24,936 nt of DNA from a virus, in the IMG/VR virus record IMGVR_UViG_3300024335_000046, positions 1 through 24,936 of that record; one strand, 5' to 3'. Position 1 is the stretch's first letter, and each line of letters starts with the position of its first letter. Position numbers and translations under genes: made by a program. Below the pieces are notes generated by a model. The model saw nothing but the letters and a program-made list of their open reading frames with translations, did no database searches and was not told where the DNA came from. Below, in pieces: positions 1,391 through 22,337 of this stretch.

Positions 1391-1759
1391 TTAATAACTC
1401 CAGATGTGGGGCCTTGGACGGCCTTCAGAGCATTCAAGGTCATCAAGGTGTACAAATCTAGAGCCGCCTTTCTGACTGATACCAATGCCAGTGAAACCTG
1501 CCTCTAGAGCGCCCTGTAAGAGCTTGTAAGCGGCTTCACCACGTACCCCTATATCTATGGCCCTACCTGAAGCATGTGCTCCCGGAGAGGCTTTACGGGC
1601 CTCTATGGGGTGGTCTTTACAACGGTATGCAGAGGTTACAGGGAAGCTAAAGCCAAGCTTCTCACGCAAGGCATCTACCTTCTTCATGAACTCAGGATCT
1701 ATACCCTTGGTTTGGCAGTGCTTACACTCCAGTTCTTCTTCTGTGAAGTACTTGTACAC
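1391..1759 (-). CDS. Peptidase M15 (D-Ala-D-Ala carboxypeptidase-like) endolysin (122 aa)
   Basis: This is a compact zinc peptidase of the M15 group (Pfam Peptidase_M15_3-like). It would cleave peptide cross-links of peptidoglycan and is the best candidate for the endolysin. Visible motifs are SAYRCKDHP near residues 43-51 and the zinc motif H62-ASGRAI-D69 (HxxxxxxD). A third ligand, His104, lies in FVHLDD. A Cys-x2-Cys pair (C12, C15) near the N-terminus is extra. The start codon is GTG at 1759-1757. It shares one base with the TAG of the LysM gene, and an AGAAGG sequence lies 9 bases upstream. No signal peptide is present, so export would depend on the adjacent holin. It is a single-domain enzyme; a separate LysM protein is encoded immediately upstream. 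Confidence 0.9.
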   Translation of the reverse strand: MYKYFTEEELECKHCQTKGIDPEFMKKVDALREKLGFSFPVTSAYRCKDHPIEARKASPGAHASGRAIDIGVRGEAAYKLLQGALEAGFTGIGISQKGGSRFVHLDDLECSEGRPRPHIWSY

Positions 1760-2640
1760 TAAATAAGACCTTCTATTTTCTTAACATCTGTAGAAGCAAG
1801 CTTACCTAAATTAATTCTTACTTCGCTTCCTTCACCTTTTCCGCTACCTAGTTCTCTAGCTATGTTTCTTAGCTGCGCGTAAGGGCTAAAGCCTGCTCTT
1901 TTAATACCAGACATTAATCCTGTAAAGCTAAACTTATCATCAGAGTCATTAAAGTTATAACGATCTACAATAATAGTATTCCCCTCATCGTCTTGTTCTA
2001 TACGCGCTTGTCCTATAGTAGTTTTCATAGAATATTCAGGATCAAATACTTTAGTAACAAAATCTAAAGCACCGCCGCCGCCACCTACATCTGCATACTG
2101 GCTTTGTCCCGCAGCTTGAGTACCATAATCAGCGTATTCAATAGCTTTCTTACCCTGACTTTGTGCGCGTAGTGCTGCATTTTTTAAAGCTTCTTTTTCT
2201 TCTTGTTTTAAATCCTGCTCTGTTAAAGTTTCTGAACCGCCAAATAAATCATACACAAACTGGCGAACATTTGTAGGTATTAGAGGCTCAGATTTAGGTC
2301 TTTCCAGTAATGAAGATTTTTCTGATTCCTGCTTAACAGGTTCTTTAAGTACAGGAGCTTCTTTCTTAACAGGCTCTTTACGTACAGGAGCTTCTTTCTT
2401 AACAGGCTCTTGGCGCACAGGAGCCTCTTGTTTAACAGGCTCTTTACGCACAGGTTGCTGGGCAGCTTGAACTTGTGCAGCCATATTAGGTTCTTTAGAA
2501 GGCACTACAATTTTTTGGCCCACATAAATTTTATCAGGATTACTAATTTTATTATTACGAGCAAGCTCTTTATAATCCATATTATACTGCTTAGCAATCT
2601 GACTGAGGGTGTCTCCTCTTTTTACTTCATACGAACTCAT
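1759..2640 (-). CDS. LysM-domain protein with Pro/Lys/Glu repeat linker (293 aa)
   Basis: Residues 3-47 are a clear LysM domain (YEVKRGDTLSQIAKQYNM, ending GQKIVVP), which binds N-acetylglucosamine chains of peptidoglycan. Residues about 63-104 are a low-complexity linker of an 11-residue unit (PVKKEAPVRKE). The C-terminal part (about 190-293) is a separate domain with GGGGGALDFV and a segment around RYNFNDSDDKFSF, of unknown function. There is no signal peptide. The start overlaps the upstream TGA as ATGA, with an AGGGAG ribosome binding site six bases ahead, and the stop overlaps the endolysin GTG. It may be a virion-associated wall-binding protein or a wall-targeting partner of the M15 enzyme. 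No catalytic motif was recognised. Confidence 0.8.
   Translation of the reverse strand: MSSYEVKRGDTLSQIAKQYNMDYKELARNNKISNPDKIYVGQKIVVPSKEPNMAAQVQAAQQPVRKEPVKQEAPVRQEPVKKEAPVRKEPVKKEAPVLKEPVKQESEKSSLLERPKSEPLIPTNVRQFVYDLFGGSETLTEQDLKQEEKEALKNAALRAQSQGKKAIEYADYGTQAAGQSQYADVGGGGGALDFVTKVFDPEYSMKTTIGQARIEQDDEGNTIIVDRYNFNDSDDKFSFTGLMSGIKRAGFSPYAQLRNIARELGSGKGEGSEVRINLGKLASTDVKKIEGLI
2330..2454 (-). repeat. 33-bp in-frame tandem repeat (Pro/Lys/Glu linker)
   Basis: Near-identical 33-base units begin at 2351, 2384 and 2417, with partial copies at each end (2330-2350 and 2450-2454). Each encodes an 11-residue unit similar to PVKKEAPVRKE. The repeat lies inside the LysM gene and stays in frame, so it is an expandable protein linker rather than a regulatory array. 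Confidence 0.9.
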
Positions 2641-5600
2641 GCTGCTCTCCCTTTACGCAAAGCCTTTAATACTTTTCCACCTGATTCAAAATTATGTCTT
2701 GCATCATTTGGATCAAACTCAATAGCACTTTCAGTTTTAAACTGTCCGGGCTTAAACAATATGTAAGAAAACGCCTCATCAGTAGGTACATCTGCTGGAG
2801 TATCTGAAGTGTTTAAATACCTGATAGAATCAAAGCCCTGATCTTCTAGCATTTTTCTAAATGATAAATTAATATCTGCCTTTTTCATACGCTCTACAAG
2901 CAAGTCTTTTTCTGACATTCTATTTTTATTAAGCGTACCGCCTGTTACTTCATCCTGCCAAGCTTCAAAGTCCAATACTTTTTGATACAAGTTGTCTTTA
3001 GCAGCCCTAAACTTAGAAGCATTTAAATTCGGAGCCTGAGTAAATACAGCCTCAACAACATTAGGTATTGTATCTGGAGTATCAAACAACACTGAAGCGT
3101 CTGAGTACAAAGCAAAGTTAGGATCGTTTAGTTCTAAAGGATTTTTAACTTGTATAAACCCACGCATCATAGCTATTGGAGGAGGAGCTTCACCTTTCTT
3201 CAAAGGCTTTTTAAGCCTATTAGATATTTGCCGTGAAGTTAAACCTGAGTCTTCATCAAAAGCATCCTCGTCTCCTTGTCTCCTAAACAATGCCATACGT
3301 TCTGCTTGAGTCTGAGTTCCTACGTGCAGTCCTGTTTCGTTAGGCATACCCACAGCCTCTTCAAACTCATTGGAGAAACCACTAGCCACTGCTCTGTATT
3401 GCATTTGTTTTTCTTTAGAGGCGGCTATGAAAGCTTTTTTATTTGCTTCACGAATTTCAGGAGAAACCGTATAATCTATAGGCATTACTTTACCTGAAGG
3501 ATCTGTAGGCAGTGCTTGCCTCGGCATCCTGCTAAAAATTTTACGAGCTAATGTCCGTTCTTCTGGTGTAAACTCTGCTATAAGTTTTGTTACTTCTTCA
3601 GTAGAAATAGTTCTACCAACAGTCTGAGCAACACCCTTGTAGTAATTATCAAACTTATATTCCCAATTAGTATTAATGTTTCTAGCACCAATAGTGTCTA
3701 GCTCGTAAGCTAAATGATAATCTATGTCTTGAGTATTGGCTCCTTCCATGTCGAACTGCTCGGATAGTTCCATGTCTCTATTGTAGTTTTTTATTTGATC
3801 TTTACTATAACCACGCGCCCTGCTAAAGTCATCGCCCATGCGTAAAGCACCCTGCTCGTCTATAAACTCGGGCATTTCTTTTCGCATATCAGACATACTT
3901 AGGTCATGCTTTTCGCCAATAGAGGATTTAACTTTTGCAAACAACATTTCCTTGAAGTCAGGATCATCTAGCTCTGCCGGTAAATCAGGATCTGGGCTGG
4001 CATAAGTTTCTTCAATATTTTTAGCTACCTTAACCGCGCCCTCAGTAGAAACTTTTACATTATTCTTCTTGGTTTCTCCCAGAATAGTTTGCGCCAACTC
4101 ATTTACAAAGGGTGATAAAGCTTTGGTAGCTGCTCTAGTCAGCCCGCCTACTACGTATCGACTTCTTTCTTCACGATCTTCTTGATCAATAAAAGCATCC
4201 CCAGCTTGTGAGTCGTAAGGACGGCCTGTTACTTTATCTATGCGCTCATCAGGTTCACTAGCTGCGCTTTCTACTTCTACAAGGCCACCTTTGTCGTATG
4301 GCGCTCTGCGCTTTTTCTTTTCAAAAGATTCCCAAAAATCATCATAATCTTCTTTAATATCTTCGCCCATAATTGGATCTATGGCACCATAAAAAGGCAT
4401 ACGGCCACCTATAATCGGTCCAATTTTTCCGTAACTAAAACCTCTAGCTGCATCGCTTGCTAAAGGCCCAGCTAAGGAAGCTGTGGCAGTAAACGGATTA
4501 CCTGTTACATCATAAGTTTTTTGAGTTCGTTGAACCATATCTAAAAGAATACCCGCGCCTCCCCATCTTGCTACACCTTCAGCAGCAATTTCAGCTCCGC
4601 TTTTGTCTGAAAAAGAATCTGAATTTCTTACATAATTCAAACCTGTAGCAGCCGCTGTCATAGTTATAGCAGTAGCTAAAGTATTTGCCGCCCCTACAGG
4701 ATTGTCAGCTAAACCAGCAATTGCACGTACAAACTGTTTTAGAACTTTATTTGTAAAAGCTGTGGGGTAACCTAGTAGCTCTGCAAAAATTGCTTTTTTA
4801 GGATCTGACATCCAGATAGGCTTTATAGCTGCTCGGGGGCTTGTATCTAAAATAACTTCATTTACATATCTACCTGCACCTCTTTTAATATTTTTATAAA
4901 AAGGATCTTTAGAATTTATTTCACCGCTATTTCTGTTTAAGTAAGCGATGCCTTGATCTATATCTACATTGAGTTCAGCTAATTGATTTCGTAAATTTTT
5001 AATTCTTTTAGAATCTGGCAAGGCTCCATGATTTTTAATAGCTGTTAAATTCTTGTGTATTAAAGATTTACCTGTGTTATAGCTCGCAAGCTGCACTGTT
5101 TTTGTCCAACCGTCCAACAAAGTCATTTTAAAAAATGCTCTGTTTGCTTTTTTAAAACCATGCCCTGCTATACTAGAGTCTCCTAAGCGATCAGCTGCGC
5201 TAACACTAGCATTTTCTAACATTAAAAATGACTCTCGCATTTCATGAAATATTTCAGGATCTGAAAGCCCTTGCTTTCCTAGCTTTCTTCGTAGTCCATT
5301 AGTCATTAATTCTGTTCCTTGAGCAAGTGCTTGCCCAAAACCTTTACCCATTTCTTTAGTTCCCGCTTTCTGCATGTTTAAAAGAACTTCAGGTAAACTA
5401 GATACTGTGGCAAAAGCTAAAGTAGACATTCTTATAAGAGTAGCGTAGCCATCACGGGCAAATTGAGCAGCAGGCCCAAAATCTTCTAAACCTTCGCCCG
5501 TCATACTTTTGTAAAGATCTTGAATATGCTCTTTATCTGTATCAGTAAAGGTATTTTTTACCGCCTCCACTTCCCTTTTAATTGGATCAATAAATTTAGT

Positions 5601-7946
5601 AGTAAACTCATCTACATTATTGACACCAAACACTTTTCTTTTTGAATAAGAATTTGCACTTTGCGTAATGTATTGAAACAAAACATTTTCAATATCATTA
5701 TCAAGAAAGTCTTCATATTTATTATCGTCTTTAATACTATTAAACTTACGGGCGGTAAAAAAAGAATTGCCTGCTACATGAGAAGCCCCGCTGGGGCCAG
5801 CTGTATCGTTTTTCTTTTTTAACATGCCTTCTATAATAGCCTTGGCTTCGTCCATATTTTCAGCTTCGCCATCTTCTATAAGAAGTTTAGCAAATCTATT
5901 TTGACCTTTACCTGCTAGTTCGGCTCTTTTAGCGTCAGTTACAACTATACGTTGACCATAAAAGTCTTTCATCAAAGCCTTTCTATTCCAAAGACGCGGG
6001 AAGTAATCTTCAGGAATAACATCTGTTTCAAAACCTAATTCTTCATTTTTAGCAATTACTTGATTTAATACATCGCGTCTAATTAAACTTGCCGCTTTGT
6101 TTACATCTTCTGATTGAGAACGTGACCCACGTAAAGCTCTTACAAGCTCTGTATTTATAATATCTTTTAAACCCCCATGAGAAGCGTCTCGTAGGCTGTG
6201 TGTAGCCCTTATTAAAGGTGCATACAAAGCTCCAGCATAGTCTTTCCAAGTCTCGTTGTAGTCCATGCCGACCTGTCGCGTTTCACTTGTATAAGTTTGA
6301 TTAGCGTCATAACGCATTATTTCAGCTAAGCGAAGAGCAGAAGGAGACTCAGAAAACTTAGTAAGTACTTTTGTAGGTCTTCCAAATAAAACCTTACCAT
6401 GTAGCGTTTGTGTCTTCTTTAGCAACATTGCTCTAGCATTGTCTGGAGATATGACACCTCTTTCTACTTGCAATAGAGTGTCAGCTACTTCTGCCTGTGT
6501 CTGCTCACTGCCTCCAATTTTAGAAGTAAATGCTTGCGCTTTAGCTGTAATAGCTTTAGGAATCTCTACACTACCTGCTTCTTGAGCCACGATAGTCAAT
6601 TCATCAAGAGCTTTAGTTACATTTTCAGAAGGAGCATCGGGGCCTTTCTTTCTATTTCTCATGTAGTTGCTAAACGAAGCAATAGCAAACTCTCTGCTTT
6701 GCTTAGCTTTGTTCATACCATAGAATACCTCACCCATTTCTTCCATGAGTTCGTCATCTAGATCATCAATGTTAGGAAGATCTCTAGTAGCTTCATAGTC
6801 AAATATAACTTCTTCTAGCTCTAACCTATCTATATCATATTGCTCTGCAATTTTTTCTATGTCTGCATCAGATACAAAGCCGCCATACTTAGTATCTTCC
6901 TGCTGGCGCTGTTGAGCTTCTTTAGAAGCCTGTCGAGACTGCTTAGCATTAAATCGTGCCTGCTTCTGGGCCTGTTCTGGGCTAGGAGCTACGCTCATTA
7001 AAAGCTCTTCTACGTCATCTTTAAATTCTAGATCTACATTTTTAACTTCTTCTGCTGAAATTTCATTTTGCGTAGGAGTGCCAGTTTCATTTACTAAGTT
7101 TAATTCAACTTCTTCTTCGTCTACAGAGCGTCTAATGTTAGCATCACCCAACCTACTACGAAATATATTATTATAACCACGCCCAGCAAAAGACAAACCT
7201 TTAGCTAACCCCTCTCCAATTTCAGGAGTGAACCGTCCTAAAGCACCACCTCCTACTGTTCCTAGCGTTGTTGCAGTAATGCTTTGCGCCATGTCAAATT
7301 CTTTTTGAATATCGGCTGCCATATGAACAGCTTGCTCAGAAGCGTTGCCAACACCTGTCCAACCTGCCCCTGCCACTGCTGCTTTTGTCATCATAGCATT
7401 ACGGCTATTGCTGGCTGCAAACTGCAAAGCTCTTTTAGCCGCTTCATTACCTACAGCGGCCCGCATAGCTAGAGGTAATTTAGGCCCGCCTACCATCATA
7501 GTAGCTACATTTAAAGGATCTTGAAAAAAATGTTTAGCACCACTAACGACAGATCCAAAATATTCAAAGCCTTCAGGGTCTGTATTTTCCCAATCCTGTA
7601 GTATTCTACCGTAAGCATCTTTAACTTCTTGCGGTGCCTTTTCAAGCATAGCCGCAGTACCAAAGCCAGAAAAAGTCATAGCATCTTGGCGTAGCCTATC
7701 TATAATTTCATCAGAGGCATAGTCTTCTACATTTCCTGCTACAGCTTTCATGTAATCGTTATCGCCAAACCTATGCTCGAATACAGTTTCTAAATCTTCT
7801 GCTCTTGCAGCTTTAAAATCTGACACAGACATAGTAGTATCTTTAGCAGCCTCTGGTATATCTTTAGATACAGGCGCAGACTGCATGTGATCTGTAAAAT
7901 CATTAAGATTTGTAAAGTCTATTTTAGGCTTTGAAATTTCAGTCAT
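2637..7946 (-). CDS. Very large polyvalent/ejection-type virion protein with C-terminal ADP-ribosyltransferase-like domain (1769 aa)
   Basis: This is the largest gene of the window. Residues ~130-260 are Ala/Gly-rich hydrophobic helices around QDPLNVATMMVGG. The middle includes a YFPRLWNR motif near residue 645 and Ala-rich membrane-like helices near 1056-1110. A Gly/Pro-rich stretch (IGPIIGGRMPFYG) follows near 1180. These features resemble large proteins of marine phages that are packaged and ejected, and the 'large polyvalent protein' class. The C-terminal ~230 residues look like a polyvalent-type ADP-ribosyltransferase fold, annotated separately. The start is ATG with a 5-base gap to the upstream gene; the stop overlaps the LysM ATG. 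Placement between other putative ejection proteins and lysis genes suggests the product enters the host with the DNA. No peptidase or transglycosylase motif was seen. Function beyond the C-terminus is unassigned. Confidence 0.85.
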   Translation of the reverse strand: MTEISKPKIDFTNLNDFTDHMQSAPVSKDIPEAAKDTTMSVSDFKAARAEDLETVFEHRFGDNDYMKAVAGNVEDYASDEIIDRLRQDAMTFSGFGTAAMLEKAPQEVKDAYGRILQDWENTDPEGFEYFGSVVSGAKHFFQDPLNVATMMVGGPKLPLAMRAAVGNEAAKRALQFAASNSRNAMMTKAAVAGAGWTGVGNASEQAVHMAADIQKEFDMAQSITATTLGTVGGGALGRFTPEIGEGLAKGLSFAGRGYNNIFRSRLGDANIRRSVDEEEVELNLVNETGTPTQNEISAEEVKNVDLEFKDDVEELLMSVAPSPEQAQKQARFNAKQSRQASKEAQQRQQEDTKYGGFVSDADIEKIAEQYDIDRLELEEVIFDYEATRDLPNIDDLDDELMEEMGEVFYGMNKAKQSREFAIASFSNYMRNRKKGPDAPSENVTKALDELTIVAQEAGSVEIPKAITAKAQAFTSKIGGSEQTQAEVADTLLQVERGVISPDNARAMLLKKTQTLHGKVLFGRPTKVLTKFSESPSALRLAEIMRYDANQTYTSETRQVGMDYNETWKDYAGALYAPLIRATHSLRDASHGGLKDIINTELVRALRGSRSQSEDVNKAASLIRRDVLNQVIAKNEELGFETDVIPEDYFPRLWNRKALMKDFYGQRIVVTDAKRAELAGKGQNRFAKLLIEDGEAENMDEAKAIIEGMLKKKNDTAGPSGASHVAGNSFFTARKFNSIKDDNKYEDFLDNDIENVLFQYITQSANSYSKRKVFGVNNVDEFTTKFIDPIKREVEAVKNTFTDTDKEHIQDLYKSMTGEGLEDFGPAAQFARDGYATLIRMSTLAFATVSSLPEVLLNMQKAGTKEMGKGFGQALAQGTELMTNGLRRKLGKQGLSDPEIFHEMRESFLMLENASVSAADRLGDSSIAGHGFKKANRAFFKMTLLDGWTKTVQLASYNTGKSLIHKNLTAIKNHGALPDSKRIKNLRNQLAELNVDIDQGIAYLNRNSGEINSKDPFYKNIKRGAGRYVNEVILDTSPRAAIKPIWMSDPKKAIFAELLGYPTAFTNKVLKQFVRAIAGLADNPVGAANTLATAITMTAAATGLNYVRNSDSFSDKSGAEIAAEGVARWGGAGILLDMVQRTQKTYDVTGNPFTATASLAGPLASDAARGFSYGKIGPIIGGRMPFYGAIDPIMGEDIKEDYDDFWESFEKKKRRAPYDKGGLVEVESAASEPDERIDKVTGRPYDSQAGDAFIDQEDREERSRYVVGGLTRAATKALSPFVNELAQTILGETKKNNVKVSTEGAVKVAKNIEETYASPDPDLPAELDDPDFKEMLFAKVKSSIGEKHDLSMSDMRKEMPEFIDEQGALRMGDDFSRARGYSKDQIKNYNRDMELSEQFDMEGANTQDIDYHLAYELDTIGARNINTNWEYKFDNYYKGVAQTVGRTISTEEVTKLIAEFTPEERTLARKIFSRMPRQALPTDPSGKVMPIDYTVSPEIREANKKAFIAASKEKQMQYRAVASGFSNEFEEAVGMPNETGLHVGTQTQAERMALFRRQGDEDAFDEDSGLTSRQISNRLKKPLKKGEAPPPIAMMRGFIQVKNPLELNDPNFALYSDASVLFDTPDTIPNVVEAVFTQAPNLNASKFRAAKDNLYQKVLDFEAWQDEVTGGTLNKNRMSEKDLLVERMKKADINLSFRKMLEDQGFDSIRYLNTSDTPADVPTDEAFSYILFKPGQFKTESAIEFDPNDARHNFESGGKVLKALRKGRAA
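2640..3332 (-). other. ADP-ribosyltransferase-like (ART-PolyVal-type) domain of the 1769-aa protein
   Basis: Residues 1539-1769 begin with GLHVGTQTQAER and continue with IQVKNPLELND. They end with GFDSIRYLN and SYILFKPGQFKTESAIEFDPND, separated here by a short acidic loop. This order matches the general plan of ADP-ribosyltransferase domains in phage polyvalent proteins: an N-terminal 'yHGT' strand with His1541, an Asn-Pro-Leu strand, a 'GyDgi.y.n' turn, and a terminal 'y.vF.p.QIKs' strand with Gln1735. The assignment is pattern recognition without a profile search. The substitution of Phe for Ile in the last motif and the absence of a clear catalytic Glu leave activity uncertain. Confidence 0.55.
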
Positions 7947-7951
7947 TTAAA

Positions 7952-9664
7952 TTAGTCCTGAATAGATTGAAGAAGCTGATATACAGAATACGAGTTGCCT
8001 GACTTATCGCTAATTAAAGGTTTAAATAAATGATTGTATGCTGGATCGTCTTGATAGCCATTAAAGCTTTGTAAGTACGCAGTTAAAGTTTTTTTGTCGC
8101 TTTGCAAATTATTTAACTCTTCCATTAAAGCTTCGCTTTTAACAACACCTGCTATATAAGCTGAGTCTACACGGGCAGCATTAGATTTTTTAATACTACC
8201 AAGAGCTTCTAAAATTTCTAGAGTTGTAGGCTCTGCCTTTTTAACACTAAGGCTAAAATCAAAATCATCTGCTTCAAAAAAATCAGGAGCCACACTTTTA
8301 TCTACCATTCTAGCCATATCATTAAGAACAATATGCTGACTAATTGTTTGAGATAAGGTAGCAGAATTATTTTTGTAGCCGTCTGTTTTTGTATTAAATT
8401 TAATAACTGAAGAGTCCGCAACCATATCAGCGTAAGCCGCAGTAAATGTTTTAGCTGCTAAATCTTCGTTATCTACATTTATATCTCGTAGAACATATTC
8501 AGCATAGGCATCACTAAACCCGTTAAAATCAGAGTCATGTCCGCTTTGAAAAACACCTAGCTGGTGTCTGAAATCTTGAGCAGTCGCTTCCGCTTCTGCT
8601 GGAGTAACTGATGCGGCCCTTAATGGATCTAAACGTACAGGAGTATCCGTCACGATAGGATCACTTACAGGATTGTCATACGGATCTAACTGTACTTCAG
8701 TTTTTCTATTATAAACAATACCACCTATTGTTACTTGAGTAGTTGTAACTTTTGGTGTTGTTTGAGTTTTTAAATCTGTAGATGTTTCATCGGGTACAAA
8801 AGTTTCTTTTTCTCGACCCCATCCATCTTTTTTAAGAACACGCCTACCTGTCACAGTATTTTGTTTGCCATTAATGTAAACAGTTTGTGTATCTGCTTTT
8901 TCACTGACAACTTCATAATCATTATCAGAAGCTTTAAAAGACTCCATAGACTTAGCAATCTTCTGGGCATCCTGCACAGGCACCCCTCTTGCCAAGGCGG
9001 ATTGCGCGGCTGCTAAGGCATCTACGTCTCTTATATAACGACTGTTAATAATGCTATTAGCTGCGTCTGCTCTCAACGCCCCTCCTGACTTACCTCTAAA
9101 GAATCCTGCAACGCCTTGCGCCACAGATCCTAAAGGAGTATCGGCAATCCCGTCATTAATTTTAATAAACTTTTCAAAAGCTGTAGAGTCATTACCTACA
9201 GACATGGCAGCTTGCGTAGCTTCATTAAATAAAGTTTTATTCTTTTTAGCTAGTTCTGTAGCCTGCGTGTACACATATTGATCAAAACCATCTTTTGTAT
9301 ATGACTGCTCATCAACATTCATTTTTAATTGTTTTTCAAGCAAAGGAATGTATTGATCTCGCAAATAACCTTCTACGCCTTGAGCATGGGCTTGAGCTTT
9401 TTTATTATTATCCAAGTGCGTAATACTTTGCTGTACTCCCGCATTGTATTTAGCTCTTGCTGCCATGATGGGTTCTTGTTGCATAAACTGAAGGGCTTTT
9501 CTTTCACTATTAGTCTGAGCAATAGAGCCTAAAAGCTTACCGCCCATCTGCAAGTAGCCTTCTATCTTTTGATCTTTTCTACGTCTTCTTGCAGCTTTAT
9601 CACGCTCTTCTCGGTTAGTGCGTTGTGTCGCAAGGAGGGATTCTCCTAAATCTTCAATAGCCAT
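7952..9664 (-). CDS. Putative virion-internal/ejection protein, unknown (570 aa)
   Basis: I do not recognise this protein. Residues 1-35 are highly charged with a run of Arg/Lys (AARRRRKDQK). Residues 35-130 look helical, with a Gly-rich hydrophobic turn (YLQMGGKLLGSI). Residues ~180-200 contain Gly-rich GSVAQGVAGFFRGKSGG. The middle (240-340) has short beta-like strands with many Thr/Val, and the rest is helical and acidic. There is no signal peptide or long membrane helix. The ATG directly follows the TAA of the 186-aa gene with a GGAG six bases upstream. It sits between the 480-aa and 1769-aa genes in what looks like an ejection-protein block, so a virion-internal role is inferred from position only. 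Confidence 0.7.
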   Translation of the reverse strand: MAIEDLGESLLATQRTNREERDKAARRRRKDQKIEGYLQMGGKLLGSIAQTNSERKALQFMQQEPIMAARAKYNAGVQQSITHLDNNKKAQAHAQGVEGYLRDQYIPLLEKQLKMNVDEQSYTKDGFDQYVYTQATELAKKNKTLFNEATQAAMSVGNDSTAFEKFIKINDGIADTPLGSVAQGVAGFFRGKSGGALRADAANSIINSRYIRDVDALAAAQSALARGVPVQDAQKIAKSMESFKASDNDYEVVSEKADTQTVYINGKQNTVTGRRVLKKDGWGREKETFVPDETSTDLKTQTTPKVTTTQVTIGGIVYNRKTEVQLDPYDNPVSDPIVTDTPVRLDPLRAASVTPAEAEATAQDFRHQLGVFQSGHDSDFNGFSDAYAEYVLRDINVDNEDLAAKTFTAAYADMVADSSVIKFNTKTDGYKNNSATLSQTISQHIVLNDMARMVDKSVAPDFFEADDFDFSLSVKKAEPTTLEILEALGSIKKSNAARVDSAYIAGVVKSEALMEELNNLQSDKKTLTAYLQSFNGYQDDPAYNHLFKPLISDKSGNSYSVYQLLQSIQD

Positions 9665-10225
9665 TTACTGCTCCATACTCAATAGACTTGGTGTCTCGGG
9701 TTGCGCTTCAGGCGGCCCTTCAGGGGGCGGTTTCATTTCTTGTATACGCTCTTCTATTTCTTGAGGCAAAGGTATGTTACTTGTCTGCTGTGCTTCTTGT
9801 AGTCTTTGAAGGACTTCGTAGTCTGCACTGTGTCCATCTAGTTCTTCTTCTTCACCGTCTATACCATCAATACTGAAATCAACATCTGCTCTTTCGCAAA
9901 GGGCCATAAAAATATATACAGTAGGCTCAATCAATAGCACCATAAGATCAGGATTTATTTTACCATTGTTATACATTTGGAACAAAAGAACTTTGGTTAT
10001 TTCCATAAGAGAAGTACCATTAGCAATCACTTCCATGAACTGCATGTAGTTTTCTTCTTCTGTTATTTTTTCAAATATAAAGTTTGTAGCCGCATTAATT
10101 GTTGTAAACTCAGGCGGCTTTTCAAATGGTAGGGGAGTGTCTGGATCGTTAGCCAAAGATTCTCCGGGTACTGATCTAGACATCCTAGCTTTTATAAGAT
10201 CTGTATTAATTTCTGGCATACTCAT
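9665..10225 (-). CDS. Acidic phage protein of unknown function (186 aa)
   Basis: The N-terminal 40 residues include a motif-like stretch (INTDLIKARMSRSVPGES) followed by a Pro-rich hinge (DTPLPFEKPPEF). Residues ~45-120 form a compact helical hydrophobic core (MEITKVLLFQMYNNGKINPD, then MVLLIEPTVYIFMALCERAD). The C-terminal third is acidic and ends in a Pro/Glu-rich tail. The pattern 'INTDLIKARMSRSVPGESL' with an 'LLIEPT.Y..MALAERA' core is one I remember from uncharacterised proteins of marine phages. A GGAG lies seven bases before the ATG at 10225; an in-frame ATG at codon 3 is an alternative start. It could be a chaperone or assembly partner for the neighbouring large internal proteins, but no function is shown. 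Confidence 0.75.
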   Translation of the reverse strand: MSMPEINTDLIKARMSRSVPGESLANDPDTPLPFEKPPEFTTINAATNFIFEKITEEENYMQFMEVIANGTSLMEITKVLLFQMYNNGKINPDLMVLLIEPTVYIFMALCERADVDFSIDGIDGEEEELDGHSADYEVLQRLQEAQQTSNIPLPQEIEERIQEMKPPPEGPPEAQPETPSLLSMEQ

Positions 10226-10228
10226 AAT

Positions 10229-11671
10229 TTATCTCCCATATCCTACTGCGCCGGGAAAGGCCATCGTAGGGCTTTGATGCATCAGTCCTTGATTTAAAAA
10301 GTCCATAGAAACTGCACCTGCGCCATAGTTTCCTGCGTTTAGAACTGAAGTCATGTCTACAGAAGCAAAGTCAAATTGAGGCAGGATATCTGCTATGTAA
10401 CCTCTTCCTCCACCAGACATTTCTATTTCTTCAGGTGTGGCAAATGTCCCAGCTACACTTTGCAACATAGGAAGTCCTACAGAAATAGGATCATCAATAG
10501 CTGCGCTTACGCTCCTATTAACGCCTGCCATGCCCCGCTCAAACAAAGAAGGCTTTGCTGCTTCTCCAGCTATGCCTGCTACATCAGTAACCTTGCCAGT
10601 GTTTAAAAGACCTCTTTCAAAGTCTGTTGTGCCGGGAGCATACTGAGGTTGAGAAGGCATAATGTATTGATTAGCATCTGCAAAGTCAAGAGGCTTACCT
10701 ACTATTTCTTCTACAGGACTTAACAAACTTTGAGTAGCTTTTTCATAAGACAAACCGCTATAATCAACATCAGCTACAGTCGGAATAGGCTTGTAAGCTG
10801 CTAAAGTAGTTTGACTTTGATCCAAGACAGCTTGACTAGCATCTAAAGCGCCTCCTGTAAAATCTGATAAACCCTCTCCCGTAGGCTTAAAGTTTAAGTT
10901 CAACTCTCCGGGCTTGTACCCTGTCTCTGGAACTTTTAAAATATCTTCAAACTCTAAAGGATCTGCTGCTGGATTAAACCCTGCAATAGTTGCTTGGGCA
11001 TTAGCTTGGATAGCTTTTATATTAGGACTAATTTTACTAAAATCTAAGTTTAAATTTTGCCCTGTGTTAGCTAAGTTGCTAAAAGTATTTTCATTTAAAA
11101 CTGTATTTGGATTTAAGTTTTGTAAATTTTCTACGGACAAACCTGTAGAGCTACTAAGCTTATCGAGTGTCATACCTTTAGATAAAGTAATATTGTCTCG
11201 GAAAGGATTCATTATATTACCCGCATCCATCTTAATTCCTTCCATCACACTATCAGCACCAAAAAAGTTTGCCTTGGCACTACTAATTTCTATACCGGGA
11301 AGTTTGTTTAATGCAGTTTTACCGAACTCCATGATGCCACTGGTCACAGTTTTAAAAGCGTTAACACCTGTCTGCACAAAGCCGTGGGCACCTTTCAATA
11401 CAGTACCTACGCCTTTTACAACACTGCCTAAAGCAGAGCCTTGCAGCCCCGCAAACTTACCAGTAAGACTAGCCATTTTACCTGCCATTCCTCCTAAGCC
11501 TTTCATTAAGGCTCCTCCTATCCCCGGAAGAATAAACATCATAGCTAGTTGACCAACTATGCCAATCTTACCCATGAATTTACCAAATTTCTTAAAGCCT
11601 TTCTTGATTGCTCTACCAATCTTTTTAAAGACCTTACCAATACCTTTAAATATTTTTTTAAAAAAACTCAT
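10229..11671 (-). CDS. Putative ejection protein with antimicrobial-peptide-like N-terminus and LysM-like segment (480 aa)
   Basis: The first 35 residues hold 13 Lys/Arg and no acidic residue, with Phe/Ile spaced to give an amphipathic helix (FFKKIFKGIGKVFKKIGR). A hydrophobic Gly-rich stretch follows at ~37-65 (IGIVGQLAMMFILPGIGGAL). No Asp or Glu occurs before residue 115. Residues ~160-209 look like a degenerate LysM: ITLSKGMTLDKLSSSTGLSV, then ENLQNLNPNT and a final GQNLNL. The rest is low-complexity and Pro/Gly-rich. This combination suggests a protein that interacts with membrane and wall during DNA entry. It is coupled upstream by TAATG to the 1039-aa gene. The LysM-like call is weaker than that at 1759-2640, and the membrane-active role is inference. 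Confidence 0.75.
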   Translation of the reverse strand: MSFFKKIFKGIGKVFKKIGRAIKKGFKKFGKFMGKIGIVGQLAMMFILPGIGGALMKGLGGMAGKMASLTGKFAGLQGSALGSVVKGVGTVLKGAHGFVQTGVNAFKTVTSGIMEFGKTALNKLPGIEISSAKANFFGADSVMEGIKMDAGNIMNPFRDNITLSKGMTLDKLSSSTGLSVENLQNLNPNTVLNENTFSNLANTGQNLNLDFSKISPNIKAIQANAQATIAGFNPAADPLEFEDILKVPETGYKPGELNLNFKPTGEGLSDFTGGALDASQAVLDQSQTTLAAYKPIPTVADVDYSGLSYEKATQSLLSPVEEIVGKPLDFADANQYIMPSQPQYAPGTTDFERGLLNTGKVTDVAGIAGEAAKPSLFERGMAGVNRSVSAAIDDPISVGLPMLQSVAGTFATPEEIEMSGGGRGYIADILPQFDFASVDMTSVLNAGNYGAGAVSMDFLNQGLMHQSPTMAFPGAVGYGR

Positions 11672-14600
11672 TATGTAATCCCATTAATAAGAGTGAATAA
11701 TCTGTCTACATTGGTAGACTTTTCTGCGCCGCCTGTAGCTCCCTCGTTAGCCAAGGCTGTAGCGTACAGGGTAGTTTTTCTTTGCTGTTCGTTTTCAAAA
11801 GCAGTTCTTACATAGGTTGCATCATCTCGTAAGTTCTGCCACAAAAAAGCCATTTCAGCAGAGTCCATTTGAAATACTTGTTGAGCATTTAACATATTAG
11901 AAGCATTTTGTGCTGCCGTATCAATTGTATTTGATTTTCTACGCCATTCGATATTAGACTGCTCTACAGCCTGAGCATTAGCAGCATTCCATGTGTCCCT
12001 TTGAAGATCCATATTCTCATTAAATTGATCTGCTGTAAGTTTTAAACTTGCATTATGCTTAGACACATCTGTAACATTTTGAGCATTAATAGCTTTAAGC
12101 CTATTTATTTCTGAAGTATTAAATTGTGTCATTGCGTTTTGTTGACTAGCATTGAACTGACGCATTGCTGCTTCTGTAGAAGTTAAAAACTGATTTACTT
12201 GATTTTTAGAAGTCGCATTAAATTGTTTTTCAGCATTTATGGCGGCTTGATCCGACAATATACGTTGTTGTTTAGCTTGTTGATCAAACATGATAGCTTG
12301 CTGCTCATTATTTAAATTAGCCATATCCATAGACAAAAAACTTTGAGCATTTGTAATTGCTACTTTTGTTCTTTGATCTACCGCTGCCATATCTAAACTT
12401 GCAAGAGCCGTAGCGTTTTGAAGCATAGCTTGTTGTTCGTTACTCAAATCTGCAAGTACAAGAGTTTGCATAGCTTTACTATTAGCTAACTCAACTTGTT
12501 GTGCTGCATTAAACTTTGTAAGATCTATATTAGCAACTGTAGAAGCATGTTGAATAGCTTGTTGCTGATCTACATTAAGCTGAGCCTGATTCATTTCGGC
12601 AGCAATTTTGCCTTGTAACAAATTAGTTTGCAGTCGAGAATTTAAATCTGCTAATTCTGTCTGTTGTGCAGCACTAAGATTTTCAGACGCATTTTGATTT
12701 CTAGAAGACAGATTAGCTAAACGCATTTGCTGATCATTAGAAAGATTAGCAAGCTCCATCTGCTGCTTAAACCCTGCATTCTTTACAAGAAAATCAGCAG
12801 CTATCTGCATATCTACAAGCCGCTTTTGATTGTAAGCAGTCATGTTTTCACGGGCAGTAGCGTCTTCGTACTTCATTTCAGCCAGTTCTATCTGCTGCTC
12901 GTTACCAAGCTCCATAGCATTTATAGCTTGTTGATTTTGAGAACGTAACACTGCTGACTGCTGCTCATTTGCAAGATTTTGAGTACGTGTTTGCTGCTGT
13001 TGCTGCGCGGAAGTTAGTACAGCTTGTTGATCAAAGTTACTTTGTAAGACTCCCATTTGCTGTGCCATCTGAGCAGTTTGTGAAGCTGCTGTTTGCTTGT
13101 TGGCTAAGTTAGCCATGCGTCTTTGCATGTCTTGTGTAGACTGCGTAAGATTGGCTTGCTGCTCATTAGAAAGGTTCTGCGCTGCACGTTGCTGGAGGGC
13201 CTGTGCGTTGCTTTGAGCCATTGGTAAGGCACTTTGTATGATTGCATTAAACAACGCATCACGCCCCACTGTGGAGGCCGACAGGCCCCTTTGAGCAAGT
13301 TTCTGCTCTACAGCTGATATTGCTGGCTTAGCCCATGCAGGAGTTTCACCGTCTTCTAACCCACCCAAAAGCGAATCCATTTGCGAAGATACAAGAGCTT
13401 CTGTAGGTAAAGCTGCTACAGCGGCTCGAACTTCCACAGGTTGCTCATCAATTTGTGCTTCAACAGTAGCTGGATCTTCTACAATAGCTGCTGTAATATC
13501 AGAAGGAATACCAGAAGTTTGTGCAATCATTTCGGCTGCCGCACCTTTCGCGGCTGTCCCAGTTACTGTGCGTCTTTGTGCAGCTTGAAAGCCTACTACG
13601 TCAGTGATAGCCGCCGCATCCCCAGCAGGAGCAGGCTCTCCTAGAATTTCTGTTCTTTGTTTTTCTTCAGCCGCTTTTGTAGAAGATACTTGAGTTTCTG
13701 AACCTGTCACGTCCCTTGCGAAAGTTCGTGAATCAATAGTGAACTGAGCTTCTTTAGCTAAAGTACTACTTTTTTGATCGGCAGTAGTTGTCACACCTTC
13801 CGCTTTTTCAGTAAGCTCTCTAATTTCATCAGGGTCTGCGATAGACTCTGCACTTAAATCACCTATAGCTGAAATTGTAGGGTCTAAGTCAACTGCCTTT
13901 GCCGCTGTGTATTCGGCTGGCTCAAAAGTAGTTACACTTTCTGCCTGAGCAGTTCCGGGAGCAAGTGTTGTCGTAGCTGTTCCTGCTATAGCTTTTTCTC
14001 TTGAAATAGCAGTGGCATCATCTAGCTTTTCAGTTTTAGTGCTCAGACCTGCTTTAAGTTTAGTAGTATCGGGATCTGTTTCTTTTACATCAGAAACAGC
14101 TAACTTTTTTACTGTAGCAGAATTAACTGTTGGCTTTTCAGGAGAAGTTATTTGAGGACGAGGAATGCTTTTAACAAAATCCTCTACATTTGTTTTGTTA
14201 TTAGCCATATTATTTCCTTGTTGCCCTGTCTGCCCTATACTGCTATAAATATCTTCAGGAAGTCCACTGCCGTTATTTTCTGTTATATTAAGATTTCTAG
14301 CATTTTCACCTTGCCTAGCTTTCCAAGCATTGTGAGCATTTTTGTATGCATTCTGACCACCGACGTTTCCTTTATAATCAGATCTTTTAGGCTCTGGATC
14401 AACATTACTAGTTGTTGTATTAGTCGATGTCGGAGTAGTAGTAGTAGTAGATGTACCACTGTTTGTCACAGAAACTTTTCCATATTTAGCTACTCTTTCA
14501 GCTTCGAGTCGAGCCGCTTCTGCTGCTTGTTCAGCGGCAAGTTTGTCCTCTTTTTCTTTAGCAGCTTTTTCTGCGGCTTCTCTAGCCGCTTTTTGTTCGG

Positions 14601-14790
14601 CAGTTTCTTGCAGCTGAGGTTTATTTTTTTTCTGCGATTCTATATTACGTTTTATCTCTTCTTCAGTAATAATATCAATATTACCTTCGACACCTCCAAA
14701 ATACTTTTTAGTTCGGCCACCCTTAGATTTTTTTTGACGAAGAGAAGTTAGTATTTTATTAGTATTTTTACTAGATCTTTTATTACTCAT
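11671..14790 (-). CDS. Long Gln/Asn/Ala-rich helical protein with 44 tandem 11-residue repeats (1039 aa)
   Basis: Residues 1-60 are basic (SKGGRTKKYFGG). Residues ~62-103 are a charged Ala/Lys/Glu helix, and ~105-125 a Thr/Ser-rich linker. Residues ~200-500 are Ala/Thr/Glu-rich, ending in a compact segment around PAWAKPAISAVEQKLAQRGL. From residue 533 to 1016 the sequence divides into 44 consecutive 11-residue units without insertion or deletion, rich in Gln/Asn/Ala, for example QQMELANLSND. The last 23 residues are non-repetitive. Such hendecads form right-handed coiled coils or long amphipathic helices. The family resembles an uncharacterised marine-phage protein known to me only from memory. 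It is preceded by AGGA six bases from the ATG and followed by the TAATG junction. It is probably a virion structural or ejection protein; a fibre role is possible. Confidence 0.85.
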   Translation of the reverse strand: MSNKRSSKNTNKILTSLRQKKSKGGRTKKYFGGVEGNIDIITEEEIKRNIESQKKNKPQLQETAEQKAAREAAEKAAKEKEDKLAAEQAAEAARLEAERVAKYGKVSVTNSGTSTTTTTPTSTNTTTSNVDPEPKRSDYKGNVGGQNAYKNAHNAWKARQGENARNLNITENNGSGLPEDIYSSIGQTGQQGNNMANNKTNVEDFVKSIPRPQITSPEKPTVNSATVKKLAVSDVKETDPDTTKLKAGLSTKTEKLDDATAISREKAIAGTATTTLAPGTAQAESVTTFEPAEYTAAKAVDLDPTISAIGDLSAESIADPDEIRELTEKAEGVTTTADQKSSTLAKEAQFTIDSRTFARDVTGSETQVSSTKAAEEKQRTEILGEPAPAGDAAAITDVVGFQAAQRRTVTGTAAKGAAAEMIAQTSGIPSDITAAIVEDPATVEAQIDEQPVEVRAAVAALPTEALVSSQMDSLLGGLEDGETPAWAKPAISAVEQKLAQRGLSASTVGRDALFNAIIQSALPMAQSNAQALQQRAAQNLSNEQQANLTQSTQDMQRRMANLANKQTAASQTAQMAQQMGVLQSNFDQQAVLTSAQQQQQTRTQNLANEQQSAVLRSQNQQAINAMELGNEQQIELAEMKYEDATARENMTAYNQKRLVDMQIAADFLVKNAGFKQQMELANLSNDQQMRLANLSSRNQNASENLSAAQQTELADLNSRLQTNLLQGKIAAEMNQAQLNVDQQQAIQHASTVANIDLTKFNAAQQVELANSKAMQTLVLADLSNEQQAMLQNATALASLDMAAVDQRTKVAITNAQSFLSMDMANLNNEQQAIMFDQQAKQQRILSDQAAINAEKQFNATSKNQVNQFLTSTEAAMRQFNASQQNAMTQFNTSEINRLKAINAQNVTDVSKHNASLKLTADQFNENMDLQRDTWNAANAQAVEQSNIEWRRKSNTIDTAAQNASNMLNAQQVFQMDSAEMAFLWQNLRDDATYVRTAFENEQQRKTTLYATALANEGATGGAEKSTNVDRLFTLINGIT
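11743..13194 (-). repeat. Array of 44 in-frame 33-base units (11-residue hendecad repeats)
   Basis: Codons for residues 533-1016 of the 1039-aa protein fall into exactly 44 units of 11 codons. Representative units are QQRAAQNLSNE (first), QQMELANLSND, QQTELADLNSR, QQAMLQNATAL, AAMRQFNASQQ, NAMTQFNTSEI and TTLYATALANE (last). Gln-Gln tends to open the units in the first two-thirds, and aromatic/hydrophobic-Asn-Ala occupies positions 6-8 in later units. DNA identity between units is low, so the array is old and maintained at protein level. Confidence 0.85.
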
Positions 14791-19626: not shown

Positions 19627-22337
19627 GCCATTGCCCATCCTACTGTAGAGTTTGTATAAATAAATTGAATTGAAAGATATTCTTTATCTAGTGTCATATC
19701 AGTACCACTAGACATAATGTTACTTCCGTTACGTCCAACTACTGTGTTTGTAAAGTTTCCAACTGTGATTAAAACTCTTTGACCAATTGTAGGTGACGCA
19801 GGTAATGTAATGGTTCTTCCAGCAGTATCCACATATACATGTGTGTTTACCGTAGCTGTTATGCTTGCACTAGTAACTACTGACGTTATACCAACTGTCA
19901 CAGGCTCAGAAGCTATCTTAGCTGCTGTTACTGCATTGCTTGCTATCTTGGCTGTAGTAATATTAGAATCAACTATAGAGGCTGTTACAACTGAACTTGT
20001 TGCTAATTGATCGGCACCAACAGCATCGTTTGCAATTTTAGCTTGTGTTATATTGTCATCTACTATAGAGGCTGTTACAACTGCATTTGCAGCTAACTGG
20101 TCTGCACCAACAGCATCGTTTGCAATTTTAGCCTGAGTTACATTGTCATCTACTATAGAAGCGGTAACTACTGCACTCGCTGCTAATTGATCTGCACCAA
20201 CAGCATCGTTTGCAATTTTAGCTTGTGTAACCGCATCGCTTGCTAATTTAGCTGTAGTAACCGTGCCATCGCCCGGAGTTGTTGAAGCAGCAACAGTAGA
20301 AATAATAATAACTTCTACCTTAACGCCTGTGGCTGGGGCAGTGCTAAAAGTAAGTGTAGTTCCGCTAAAGCTAAAAGTATCTTTATGCTGATATACACCA
20401 TCAAAATAAACTTGAATAGAGTTTTCAGAAGCAGGTGTAACAGACATGGTGAGCGTTGTGTCGCTTCCATCGCCTGTCATGGTGTCTAGCGTGAACTGAG
20501 CCTCACCGCCTCCAATGTCTCCCCAAGAAGTAGTATAGCCCTCAAACTTTCCAGTTGTACTGTTATATCTAAACTGTCCTGCTGAAGCCGTAGGACGCTG
20601 TGCTGTAGTACCAACAGGGAGTTTTAATGCTCCTGTCGTGCCCATTGTAGTAGTAATTGCTGTAGCGTGATTGCCCATATAAGCATGTGAGCTACACTGA
20701 TAATATAAAATATTAGGCGTATCAGACGTTACAGCTATTGTAGTATGAGCACCAGAACTTCCGGGAGTTCCTGAAGTTGTTACACCAGTTGTGTACGCCG
20801 AAGTCTTAGCTGCGTCATAATAAAAACGTAATGGGTGTCCGCTGTTTGAAGAATTAGATTGATCAAACTTATAATAGTATCCACTAGAGCTTGTAATACT
20901 ATCTACGCCTAGTAAAGATAATGCTGGAGACTCTTCACCATTTAAAAAATATGCACTGCTAGAACCATCACCGTTATAAGGATGTGATGAAGTTTTTGAA
21001 GCTACTGTAACTGTAAACACTACAGGGCTTGAAGCACTACCATAATCTCTTGTTACGATAGAACCAGTAACTTGAGAGTCTACATAAGCTTTAACAGACT
21101 GTTGAGTAGGCACAAGTGTTGCACTATTAGAAGACATAGTATCTTCATCTACGAATGCAGTTACATTGATTGAACCGTCATTAAGACTTCCAAAAGTTAA
21201 GTTTGTAATGGCAACAGCATCAATTGTGCCACCTTCTACTTTATTACCAGAAATCTGATTGTCTGCAAGTGTAAGAGTACCTCCTGAGACATCTAAAGCA
21301 TTACCAGATCCTACAGTAATATTAGCACCATCTACAGTGCCTCCATTAATATCTGGATTTGTTAAAGTCTTGTTAGTAAAAGTTTCACCACCTGCAAGCG
21401 TAGCTACAGTGCTGTCAATTGCAAAAGTTACTGTATTACCTGAACCAGACGTATTAATACCTGTACCGCCTGTAAAGGTCATAGCTTCGCTGTCAAGGTC
21501 AATGCTTAAAGCACCACCAGAGTCTGCACTAAAGTCCAAGTCCTGTGCAGTTACTTGAGCGTCTACATAAGCCTTAATAGACTGCTGAGTAGCTAAAGAC
21601 GTATTACTATTAGAAGTTAAACCATCTTCATCAAGAATAGAGGTTACTGTAGTACCACTGTTTAATACAAGGCTGTCAAGATTAGCAGTACCGTTAATGT
21701 ATAAGTCTTTCCACTCAGCCCCTGTAGCACCTAAGTCATGAGTATTATCCGCACTGGGAAGCAAGTCAGAAGCTACATCAGCACTAAAAGATACTGTATC
21801 TGTAGCAGCATCACCAAAAGTTAAGTTACCTGCAATGGTTGCGTTGCCAGTTACTGTAAGATTACCGCCTACACTTAGATTATTAGAAAGCGTTGTAACG
21901 CCTGTGACACCTAAAGTACCTGCAACTGTAGCATTTACATCTACATCTAAAGTATCTACATGTGCTGTACCGTCTAAAAATAAATCTTTAAACTCTAAAG
22001 AAGATGTGCCTAAATCAATATCATTGTTTGTTACAGGTACAATAGCACCATCTTGAATACGAATCTGCTCTACAGCAGCACTAGAAACTTCTACATAAAA
22101 ACCAAGACGATTGTTTGTTCCGTCTACTTCAATCTTGTTAAGAAAATCAAGATCACCAATTTTAAAAATATTACCGCCCTGACCAGCAGTACCATCGTGT
22201 CTGTGGCCTGTGCTTACTGCACTGCTAGAAGAGTAAGCAAAAGAGTTTACTAATTGGTTATATTCGTTATTAAATAACGATGCTGATATAGTATCTCCAT
22301 CAGCGAATGTACTTTGTCTGGTATAGCTCTGAGCCAT
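19623..22337 (-). CDS. Long tail fibre (904 aa)
   Basis: The N-terminal 60 residues (FADGDTISASLFNNEYNQLV, with GHRHDGTAGQGG) resemble attachment regions of marine phage fibres. Two shaft repeats follow (IDLGTSSLEFKDLFLDGTAH and HDLGATGAEWKDLYINGTAN), with beta-rich 'VGGNLTVTGNATIAGNLT' runs. Two copies of a TQQSxKAYVDxQV motif are present. The cupredoxin-like module is at 432-558. A short strand region (LTMSVTPASENSIQVYFDGV) follows, then three tandem 30-residue repeats (AKIANDAVGADQLA) at about 703-792. The tip domain at ~820-904 (ITLPASPTIGQRVLI) is shared with the short fibre. AAGGAG precedes the ATG. It acts as a trimeric host-binding fibre by analogy. Confidence 0.85.
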   Translation of the reverse strand: MAQSYTRQSTFADGDTISASLFNNEYNQLVNSFAYSSSSAVSTGHRHDGTAGQGGNIFKIGDLDFLNKIEVDGTNNRLGFYVEVSSAAVEQIRIQDGAIVPVTNNDIDLGTSSLEFKDLFLDGTAHVDTLDVDVNATVAGTLGVTGVTTLSNNLSVGGNLTVTGNATIAGNLTFGDAATDTVSFSADVASDLLPSADNTHDLGATGAEWKDLYINGTANLDSLVLNSGTTVTSILDEDGLTSNSNTSLATQQSIKAYVDAQVTAQDLDFSADSGGALSIDLDSEAMTFTGGTGINTSGSGNTVTFAIDSTVATLAGGETFTNKTLTNPDINGGTVDGANITVGSGNALDVSGGTLTLADNQISGNKVEGGTIDAVAITNLTFGSLNDGSINVTAFVDEDTMSSNSATLVPTQQSVKAYVDSQVTGSIVTRDYGSASSPVVFTVTVASKTSSHPYNGDGSSSAYFLNGEESPALSLLGVDSITSSSGYYYKFDQSNSSNSGHPLRFYYDAAKTSAYTTGVTTSGTPGSSGAHTTIAVTSDTPNILYYQCSSHAYMGNHATAITTTMGTTGALKLPVGTTAQRPTASAGQFRYNSTTGKFEGYTTSWGDIGGGEAQFTLDTMTGDGSDTTLTMSVTPASENSIQVYFDGVYQHKDTFSFSGTTLTFSTAPATGVKVEVIIISTVAASTTPGDGTVTTAKLASDAVTQAKIANDAVGADQLAASAVVTASIVDDNVTQAKIANDAVGADQLAANAVVTASIVDDNITQAKIANDAVGADQLATSSVVTASIVDSNITTAKIASNAVTAAKIASEPVTVGITSVVTSASITATVNTHVYVDTAGRTITLPASPTIGQRVLITVGNFTNTVVGRNGSNIMSSGTDMTLDKEYLSIQFIYTNSTVGWAMA
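19962..20231 (-). repeat. Three tandem 90-bp in-frame repeats in the long fibre
   Basis: The identical string cagcatcgtttgcaatttta on the plus strand occurs at 20021, 20111 and 20201, exactly 90 bases apart. Each unit encodes 30 residues of the type TQAKIANDAVGADQLA plus VVTASIVDDN. Degenerate further units flank the array (TTAKIASNAVTAAKIAS). The repeat is in frame and probably varies the shaft length. Confidence 0.9.
20664..21044 (-). repeat. Duplicated 127-residue cupredoxin-like fibre module, copy in the long fibre
   Basis: Encodes residues 432-558 of the 904-aa fibre, with His501 (GHPL), Cys548, His551 and Met554. It is gap-free with the copy at 17593-17973 and also similar at DNA level, so the two arose by duplication or exchange within this genome or between related phages. 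Confidence 0.8.

Follow-up and report, generated by a model that had tools for sequence, protein, structure and literature searches.

A hendecad-repeat protein family with two opposite hydrophobic stripes in HMO-2011-type podophages, and its possible role in DNA ejection

Background

HMO-2011-type phages, described as being among the most abundant marine virus groups, possess short tails (PMC9038755); in their relative MQM1, a tail of 9.2 nm is attached to a head of 70.6 nm (PMC10410586). The ejection proteins of podophages infecting Gram-negative bacteria are encoded by a small operon, the last ORF of which is the largest (PMC8954989), and the ejected proteins lengthen a tail that is otherwise too short for the envelope (PMC11784390). 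The ejection genes of T7 (gp14/gp15/gp16) and P22 (gp7/gp20/gp16) follow tail and fibre genes and form a series ending in a giant protein. Helical units of 11 residues (hendecads) are known from the tape measure proteins of siphophages, such as TP901-1 and staphylococcal and clostridial prophages (PMC3271669, PMC5099701), which are encoded in the structural gene region, gain and lose whole units, carry W/F markers, are hydrophobic on a single face and determine how long the extended tail becomes. They are also known from right-handed coiled coils, in which the 11-residue repeat equals three helical turns and the core is a single a/d/e/h stripe.

The window analysed here, a virus-record fragment of 24,936 bases, originates from an HMO-2011-type podophage, the core replication and packaging genes of which lie outside it. 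It encodes a protein, referred to as the rod, that shares the 11-residue helical units, their gain and loss as whole units and the structural gene region with the tape measures, but that has N/Q instead of W/F markers and two opposite hydrophobic stripes, and that occurs in short-tailed phages. Similarly, the rod shares the three-turn repeat and a predicted helix with right-handed hendecad coiled coils, whereas its stripes lie on opposite sides. Its gene module resembles the T7 and P22 ejection genes in position, in its giant last member and in the role proposed below, but it counts five genes instead of three, shows no detectable sequence relation to them and includes, in the rod, an 11-residue period that they lack.

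Results and discussion

Architecture of the rod protein

The rod ORF (window 11671-14790) encodes 1039 amino acids and is located, as are all protein segments and module genes given below, on the minus strand. Its N-terminal ~425 residues (13516-14790) form a low-complexity sequence rich in Pro/Thr/Ala/Glu, the length of which varies strongly among relatives; whole-protein length ranged from 857 to 1282 amino acids in window-clade relatives, while the length of the repeat region was constant. A conserved helical cap (residues 430-523; 13222-13503; PAWA...LAQRGLSAS...ALFNAIIQSALP), recognised by its invariant or near-invariant alignment columns and its AlphaFold2 (AF2) helices, precedes the repeats and contains the N-terminal anchor tryptophan W486. 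The hendecad array (about residues 524-983; 11842-13221), consisting of ~42 units of 11 in one register and free of proline, starts after Pro523, beyond which the protein contains no further proline. It comprises a sub-region of NLSNxQQ-type hendecads (residues 533-851; 12238-13194), in which units alternate and form a 22-residue double unit as judged from identity by lag, and a sub-region of QFNAS-type hendecads (residues 852-983; 11842-12237), in which the single-unit gains among window-clade relatives are located. Outside the repeat, a conserved C-terminal cap (residues 984-1016; 11743-11841; WQNLRDDA...ENEQQRK), delimited by unit scores and conserved columns, is followed by a short variable tail (residues 1017-1039; 11674-11742). 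In several relatives, this tail is swapped for a hydrophobic stretch resembling a glycine zipper, for a domain of the CWVAREVYG type or, in one case, for Peptidase_S74. HMO-2011-like members (L001 14700-15077 and 50 others) carry, after a glycine-zipper-like stretch, an extra end domain of ~80 amino acids (CWVAREVYG...W..FR.WL), for which no Pfam match was found. In two loci (L067 and L079), two ORFs encode the rod instead of one; the break, which represents either a sequencing error or a real split, lies near residue ~710-755 of the window protein.

Period 11 stood out in the rod with an information z of 16 compared with shuffles; among all periods from 3 to 22, only its multiple 22 stood out besides. 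The signal was confined to residues ~480 onward, sliding windows giving a z of about 0 for the N-terminal ~425 residues. Among 500 other ORFs from related loci that served as a control, one unrelated repeat protein exceeded a z of 4.6. Cutting residues 533-1016, correctly placed at window positions 13194-11743 by the first-pass annotation, into elevens gave exactly the units listed there. In addition, an 11-position matrix made from 128 relatives, all outside the window's clade, was slid along the window protein; it preferred the same register in every 44-residue segment starting at residues 500 to 951, with a lead of mostly 20-60 bits, and scored positive for most such segments starting at residues 522 to 940. 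Of the 44 uninterrupted units claimed originally, 41 are in register and one more can be added N-terminally, but the last three (984-994, 995-1005 and 1006-1016) are misfits, with matrix scores of -20, -11 and -5 bits. Similarly, the claim that Gln-Gln marks are spaced by multiples of 11 held for in-phase gaps of 11, 22, 33 and 44, but gaps of 55 or 66, also listed, were absent; the region contains 24 Gln-Gln steps, only 15 of which share one phase.

A 22-residue super-repeat overlies the 11-residue period: alternate units were more alike both in residues 533-851 of the window protein (p = 0.006) and in HTVC115P (p = 0.002), with an identity in the former sub-region of 0.219 at even lags versus 0.175 at odd lags; lag-22 and lag-44 identity exceeded lag-11 and lag-33 identity in the window rod. 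The array is rich in Gln, Asn and Ala and has few charges, as had been noticed before (A 16%, Q 17%, N 12% and DEKR about 18%), and it contains 0.8% Gly, no Pro, 0.6% W and 2.9% F. Tandem repeats at the DNA level were not found within the array, indicating that the repeat is old.

Further repeats were encountered in the window and in other loci. The LysM protein (ORF 1759-2640, minus strand) contains a 33-bp tandem array at 2332-2454 (3.7 copies, 88% match), encoding a second, unrelated 11-residue repeat that is KKEAPVRKEPV-like and rich in Pro/Lys/Glu. A tail-fibre-like ORF (window 19968-20228) harbours 2.9 tandem copies of a 90-bp unit (87%), which encode 30-residue repeats of the NDAVGADQLAAS type. 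An unrelated ORF in another locus (L148 1872-3620), with a near-perfect LTGVNATASDGAV-type repeat and a period-11 z of 37.6, probably encodes a beta-rich repeat protein.

Helical hendecads with two hydrophobic stripes

That the hendecads are helical, as had been proposed, is supported by three observations. Firstly, no proline occurred in 68,233 residues of array and C-terminal cap from 194 distinct proteins, versus 6.2% upstream in the same proteins. Secondly, AF2 modelled both the window protein (residues 425-1039) and the HMO-2011 rod as helix only, without strands, the longest unbroken helices measuring 157 and 120 residues, respectively; model confidence was low (mean pLDDT of 60 and 59, pTM of 0.23 and 0.27), the tertiary arrangement not being readable. 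Thirdly, the length of the array changes by whole elevens, as described below. Both the register and the predicted helix are considered firm, with very little doubt. A beta-solenoid, prompted by peaks in hydrophobicity at periods of 2.75 and 2.2 residues and by the pentapeptide-like motif ANLSN, was rejected because AF2 modelled no strand in two members, proline is absent and glycine is nearly absent.

The hydrophobic residues (LIVMFWY) had a power of 0.9 at 11/3 (3.67) residues in the window array, with medians of 0.2-0.9 in the larger clades; the power at the second harmonic (2.2 residues) amounted to 13.5, with clade medians of 5-18, and hydrophobicity was also strong at 2.75 residues. The 3.67-residue hydrophobic period, the lack of which had been set beforehand as the refuting outcome, is hence essentially absent, and with it the single hydrophobic face required by the two arrangements proposed in the first-pass annotation, namely a right-handed hendecad coiled coil and an 11-mer membrane helix. 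Plotted on a helical wheel, the hydrophobic residues form stripes near 0 and 170 degrees (stripe axis at ~172 degrees), with Gln/Ser/Thr near 65-85 degrees (Q at 63 degrees) and Asp/Glu/Lys/Arg near 260 degrees. Two roughly opposite stripes thereby separate Gln/Ser/Thr, on one face, from charged residues and Asn, on the other, which is a third arrangement outside the two options considered earlier. All groups compared (window, HTVC, HMO-2011, gamma and phiM6) share the hydrophobic and Gln pattern; in the phiM6 clade, the charged face stands out only weakly. Depending on the scale used, the angle between the stripes is 139-195 degrees, which is too loose to count the helices in a tube. Since the stripes are opposite, each helix is most likely flanked by others on both sides, a pattern that does not tell apart a sheet, a tube and a folded bundle.

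An unnamed family with a whole-unit length rule

A tblastn search with the rod retrieved 26 phage records with about 30-47% identity, all unannotated, encompassing HMO-2011, CRP roseophages, the pelagiphages HTVC103P/104P/115P/033P, Vibrio phage CHOED, Aeromonas phages MQM1 and 1233, Pseudoalteromonas phage Slicky01, and Rhizobium and Sinorhizobium phages; scans of sequence collections yielded over 200 additional relatives. No family of PHROG, Pfam or NCBIfam covers the rod, a profile search against the PDB gave two chance matches (E 0.3), and Foldseek retrieved only family members from the viral set and nothing significant from the PDB. The rod belongs to an unnamed protein family of HMO-2011-type podophages.

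The length of the array was measured as the spacing of two tryptophans located in the conserved flanks (W486 to W949 in the window protein), with anchor profiles that exclude the bulk of the array. This distance equals 463+11k in 177 of the 195 distinct relatives and is within one residue of it in the other 18, which have distances of 187, 198, 200 or 319 and comprise phiM6/Rhizobium-like proteins and a few others. The value of k ranges from -28 to +10, so that the smallest array has ~16 and the largest ~54 units, which as straight rods would measure 26 and 89 nm; one relative cut at its 3' end (L190, k = -34) was left out of this range. Entire clades share one exact distance, namely 265 in 74 HMO-2011-like, 353 in 28 HTVC-like and 463 in 46 window-like distinct relatives. 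A tree of the flanking domains without the array requires at least 19 length changes versus only two register changes, these counts being rough, as the tree was made with a fast method and has some long branches. Furthermore, a held-out set of 31 later loci provided 23 further distinct proteins in which both anchors were present, all 23 being in register, and added three unseen length classes (210, 287 and 397). Across the relatives, array length changes only by whole hendecads. Gain solely as double units (22 residues) was rejected, as odd steps are present. No tight relation was found between array length and the length of the giant protein described below.

The rod gene heads a five-gene module

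The rod gene comes after a block of tail-fibre-like genes and heads a module of five genes that ends in a giant protein. The next gene encodes a Lys/Gly-rich protein of 480 amino acids with one predicted hydrophobic segment at residues 32-60 (10229-11671). It is followed by the gene for a conserved partner of 186 amino acids (9665-10225; PGESL..PFEKPPEF), which stands beside the rod gene in all clades, as evidenced by 204 homologous ORFs, synteny and phage matches. A 570-amino-acid protein (7952-9664), for which no match was found beyond close relatives, precedes the giant protein of 1769 amino acids (2637-7946). The order rod-(480)-186-570-giant, or a shorter form of it, was found in most loci with enough sequence; in the window-like and HTVC-like clades, the 480-amino-acid Lys/Gly-rich gene usually precedes the 186-amino-acid gene, after which a gene for ~500 amino acids and the giant gene follow. 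In HTVC115P (L002 15867-16316), a gene annotated as toxin-activating lysine-acyltransferase lies directly after the rod gene, and an ORF of ~151 amino acids occupies this position in about 19 related loci.

Residues ~620-1077 of the giant protein are related to virion ('particle') proteins of KPP25 and phiR18 and to LUZ24 gp50 (tblastn E 1e-12 to 2e-8), and the giant matches PHROG 7348 (E=6e-98) and 6958 (E=2e-21); its likeness to virion proteins spans about 25% of its length or less. LUZ24 gp50 and KPP25 ORF088 are thus kin of the giant, and several neighbours of LUZ24 gp50 are annotated as phage particle proteins, but no hendecad array was found in LUZ24 gp48-gp53 and gp56 or in three tested KPP25 module proteins. 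The C-terminus of the giant (window 2637-3200; GFDSIRYLN...SYILFKPGQ) resembles the ADP-ribosyltransferase-like domain of polyvalent phage proteins; it had no Pfam match.

The neighbours of the rod showed no sequence match to the ejection proteins of T7, P22, P-SSP7 and N4 (best E 0.03, chance level). Podophage groups usually lack mutual sequence likeness in their ejection proteins. Of the ejection-protein features compared, the gene series ending in a giant was found and sequence or profile similarity was not; therefore, the ejection assignment rests on gene order. Period 11 was absent from the ejection proteins of these four phages, P22 gp20 giving a weak z of 3.4. In P22 gp20 (L230 10069-11484) and LUZ24 gp51 (L234 6290-7807), an RGQD-(L/M)-A motif recurs at short spacings (7, 11 or about 18-19 residues) within a stretch of helical appearance, which is possibly a distant analogue of the hendecad spacing.

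Proposed role and alternatives

A trans-envelope or internal role in DNA ejection, as suggested by the first-pass annotation, is compatible with the gene order and with the short tails of relatives. On this reading, the ORF encodes a modular, essentially proline-free helical protein, built of a conserved cap (430-523), about 42 hendecads and a conserved C-terminal cap, that is probably an internal virion protein of the ejection module. Each hendecad would make three helical turns of ~1.65 nm in total and, since the number of turns is an integer, the same stripes and faces would recur from unit to unit. Identical helices may pack flank to flank via their stripes into a sheet, a tube wall or a folded bundle, with the neutral Gln face turned to one side, for instance as a channel lining, and the charged face to the other. 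The rod would be carried in the particle, be let out with the neighbouring module proteins and help the short tail to reach through the envelope. A straight rod of 68-73 nm is set against a head of about 70 nm across (relative MQM1, PMC10410586) and is thus too long for it, so that the rod would either have to be folded inside the particle or reach out exclusively beyond it. Longer members of the family would likewise need folding to be housed in a head. To this whole chain, from an ejection-module virion protein to helices packed flank to flank, we give an even chance. A bolder version, in which the DNA-delivery conduit is a self-assembling, extensible helical tube of identical two-striped hendecad helices with a Gln/Ser/Thr-lined wall, is tentative and on balance unlikely.

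The head size also bears on an antiparallel array folded into a helical-hairpin bundle, a compact core or scaffold in the head with intramolecular stripes, as the head is too small for a straight rod. Stripes on opposite sides are in keeping with a helix that is flanked left and right, and AF2 splits the window array into helices no longer than 157 residues and the HMO-2011 array into three long helices. However, the AF2 breaks fall mostly in low-confidence stretches, the turn-makers Pro and Gly are absent and scarce, respectively, in the array, and unit-by-unit length changes would displace hairpin partners, which makes this bundle an unlikely alternative.

An external trimeric fibre or stalk, with a hendecad coiled-coil shaft on the tail, would fit the position of the rod gene after the tail-fibre-like genes, and the rod of one relative (L181 1505-4024) ends in Peptidase_S74 (E 6e-10). 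Peptidase_S74 is a chaperone of trimeric fibres. Such an end was present in only one of the 227 relatives, however, and a dimeric or trimeric coiled coil needs the single core stripe that the rod lacks; moreover, the genes that accompany the rod downstream belong to the giant virion-protein type and not to a receptor-binding one, so that a fibre seems improbable.

A tape-measure-like rod, either a length-setting or an extended pilot protein equivalent to those of siphophages, would explain the gain and loss of whole 11-residue units, as in tape measures (PMC3271669), and the exact array length within clades, as in the 74 HMO-2011-like relatives; the TP901-1 tape measure is periodic as well (period-11 z of 12.3). 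Its hendecads are one-faced, however, with a first harmonic of 50.6 and a second of 0.5, which is the reverse of the rod array. In addition, the tails of relatives are short (PMC9038755; 9.2 nm in MQM1, PMC10410586) versus arrays of ~26-89 nm if straight, the MQM1 rod of ~22 units extending ~36 nm, far beyond its own tail; therefore, the rod measures no tail. Of the three tape-measure features compared, only whole-unit gain and loss was found, the W/F marker with a single face and the setting of a long tail length being absent, so that the resemblance is partial, restricted to the units, and a tape measure appears quite improbable.

Finally, an 11-mer membrane-binding helix like that of alpha-synuclein or perilipin, suggested by the equal repeat length and the few charges on the rod helix, is hardly credible, as there is no single apolar face, the hydrophobic moment being 0.044 for the whole array and 0.14 on average over 33-residue windows versus 0.42 for tape-measure hendecads.

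Conclusions

The structural genes of HMO-2011-type phages are mostly unannotated, and the rod family adds to these phages a strict sequence-to-geometry rule that extends across relatives infecting alphaproteobacteria, SAR11 and gammaproteobacteria. Two-stripe hendecads can now be separated from the one-stripe hendecads of tape measures, a distinction that could serve to find other helical-wall proteins, and the rod offers a concrete target for cryo-EM in the cultured phages HMO-2011, HTVC115P, CHOED and MQM1. If a conduit of two-striped helices were indeed formed, its length would be tuned in steps of ~1.65 nm by the gain and loss of hendecads, unlike the solutions found in T7, P22 and tape measures.
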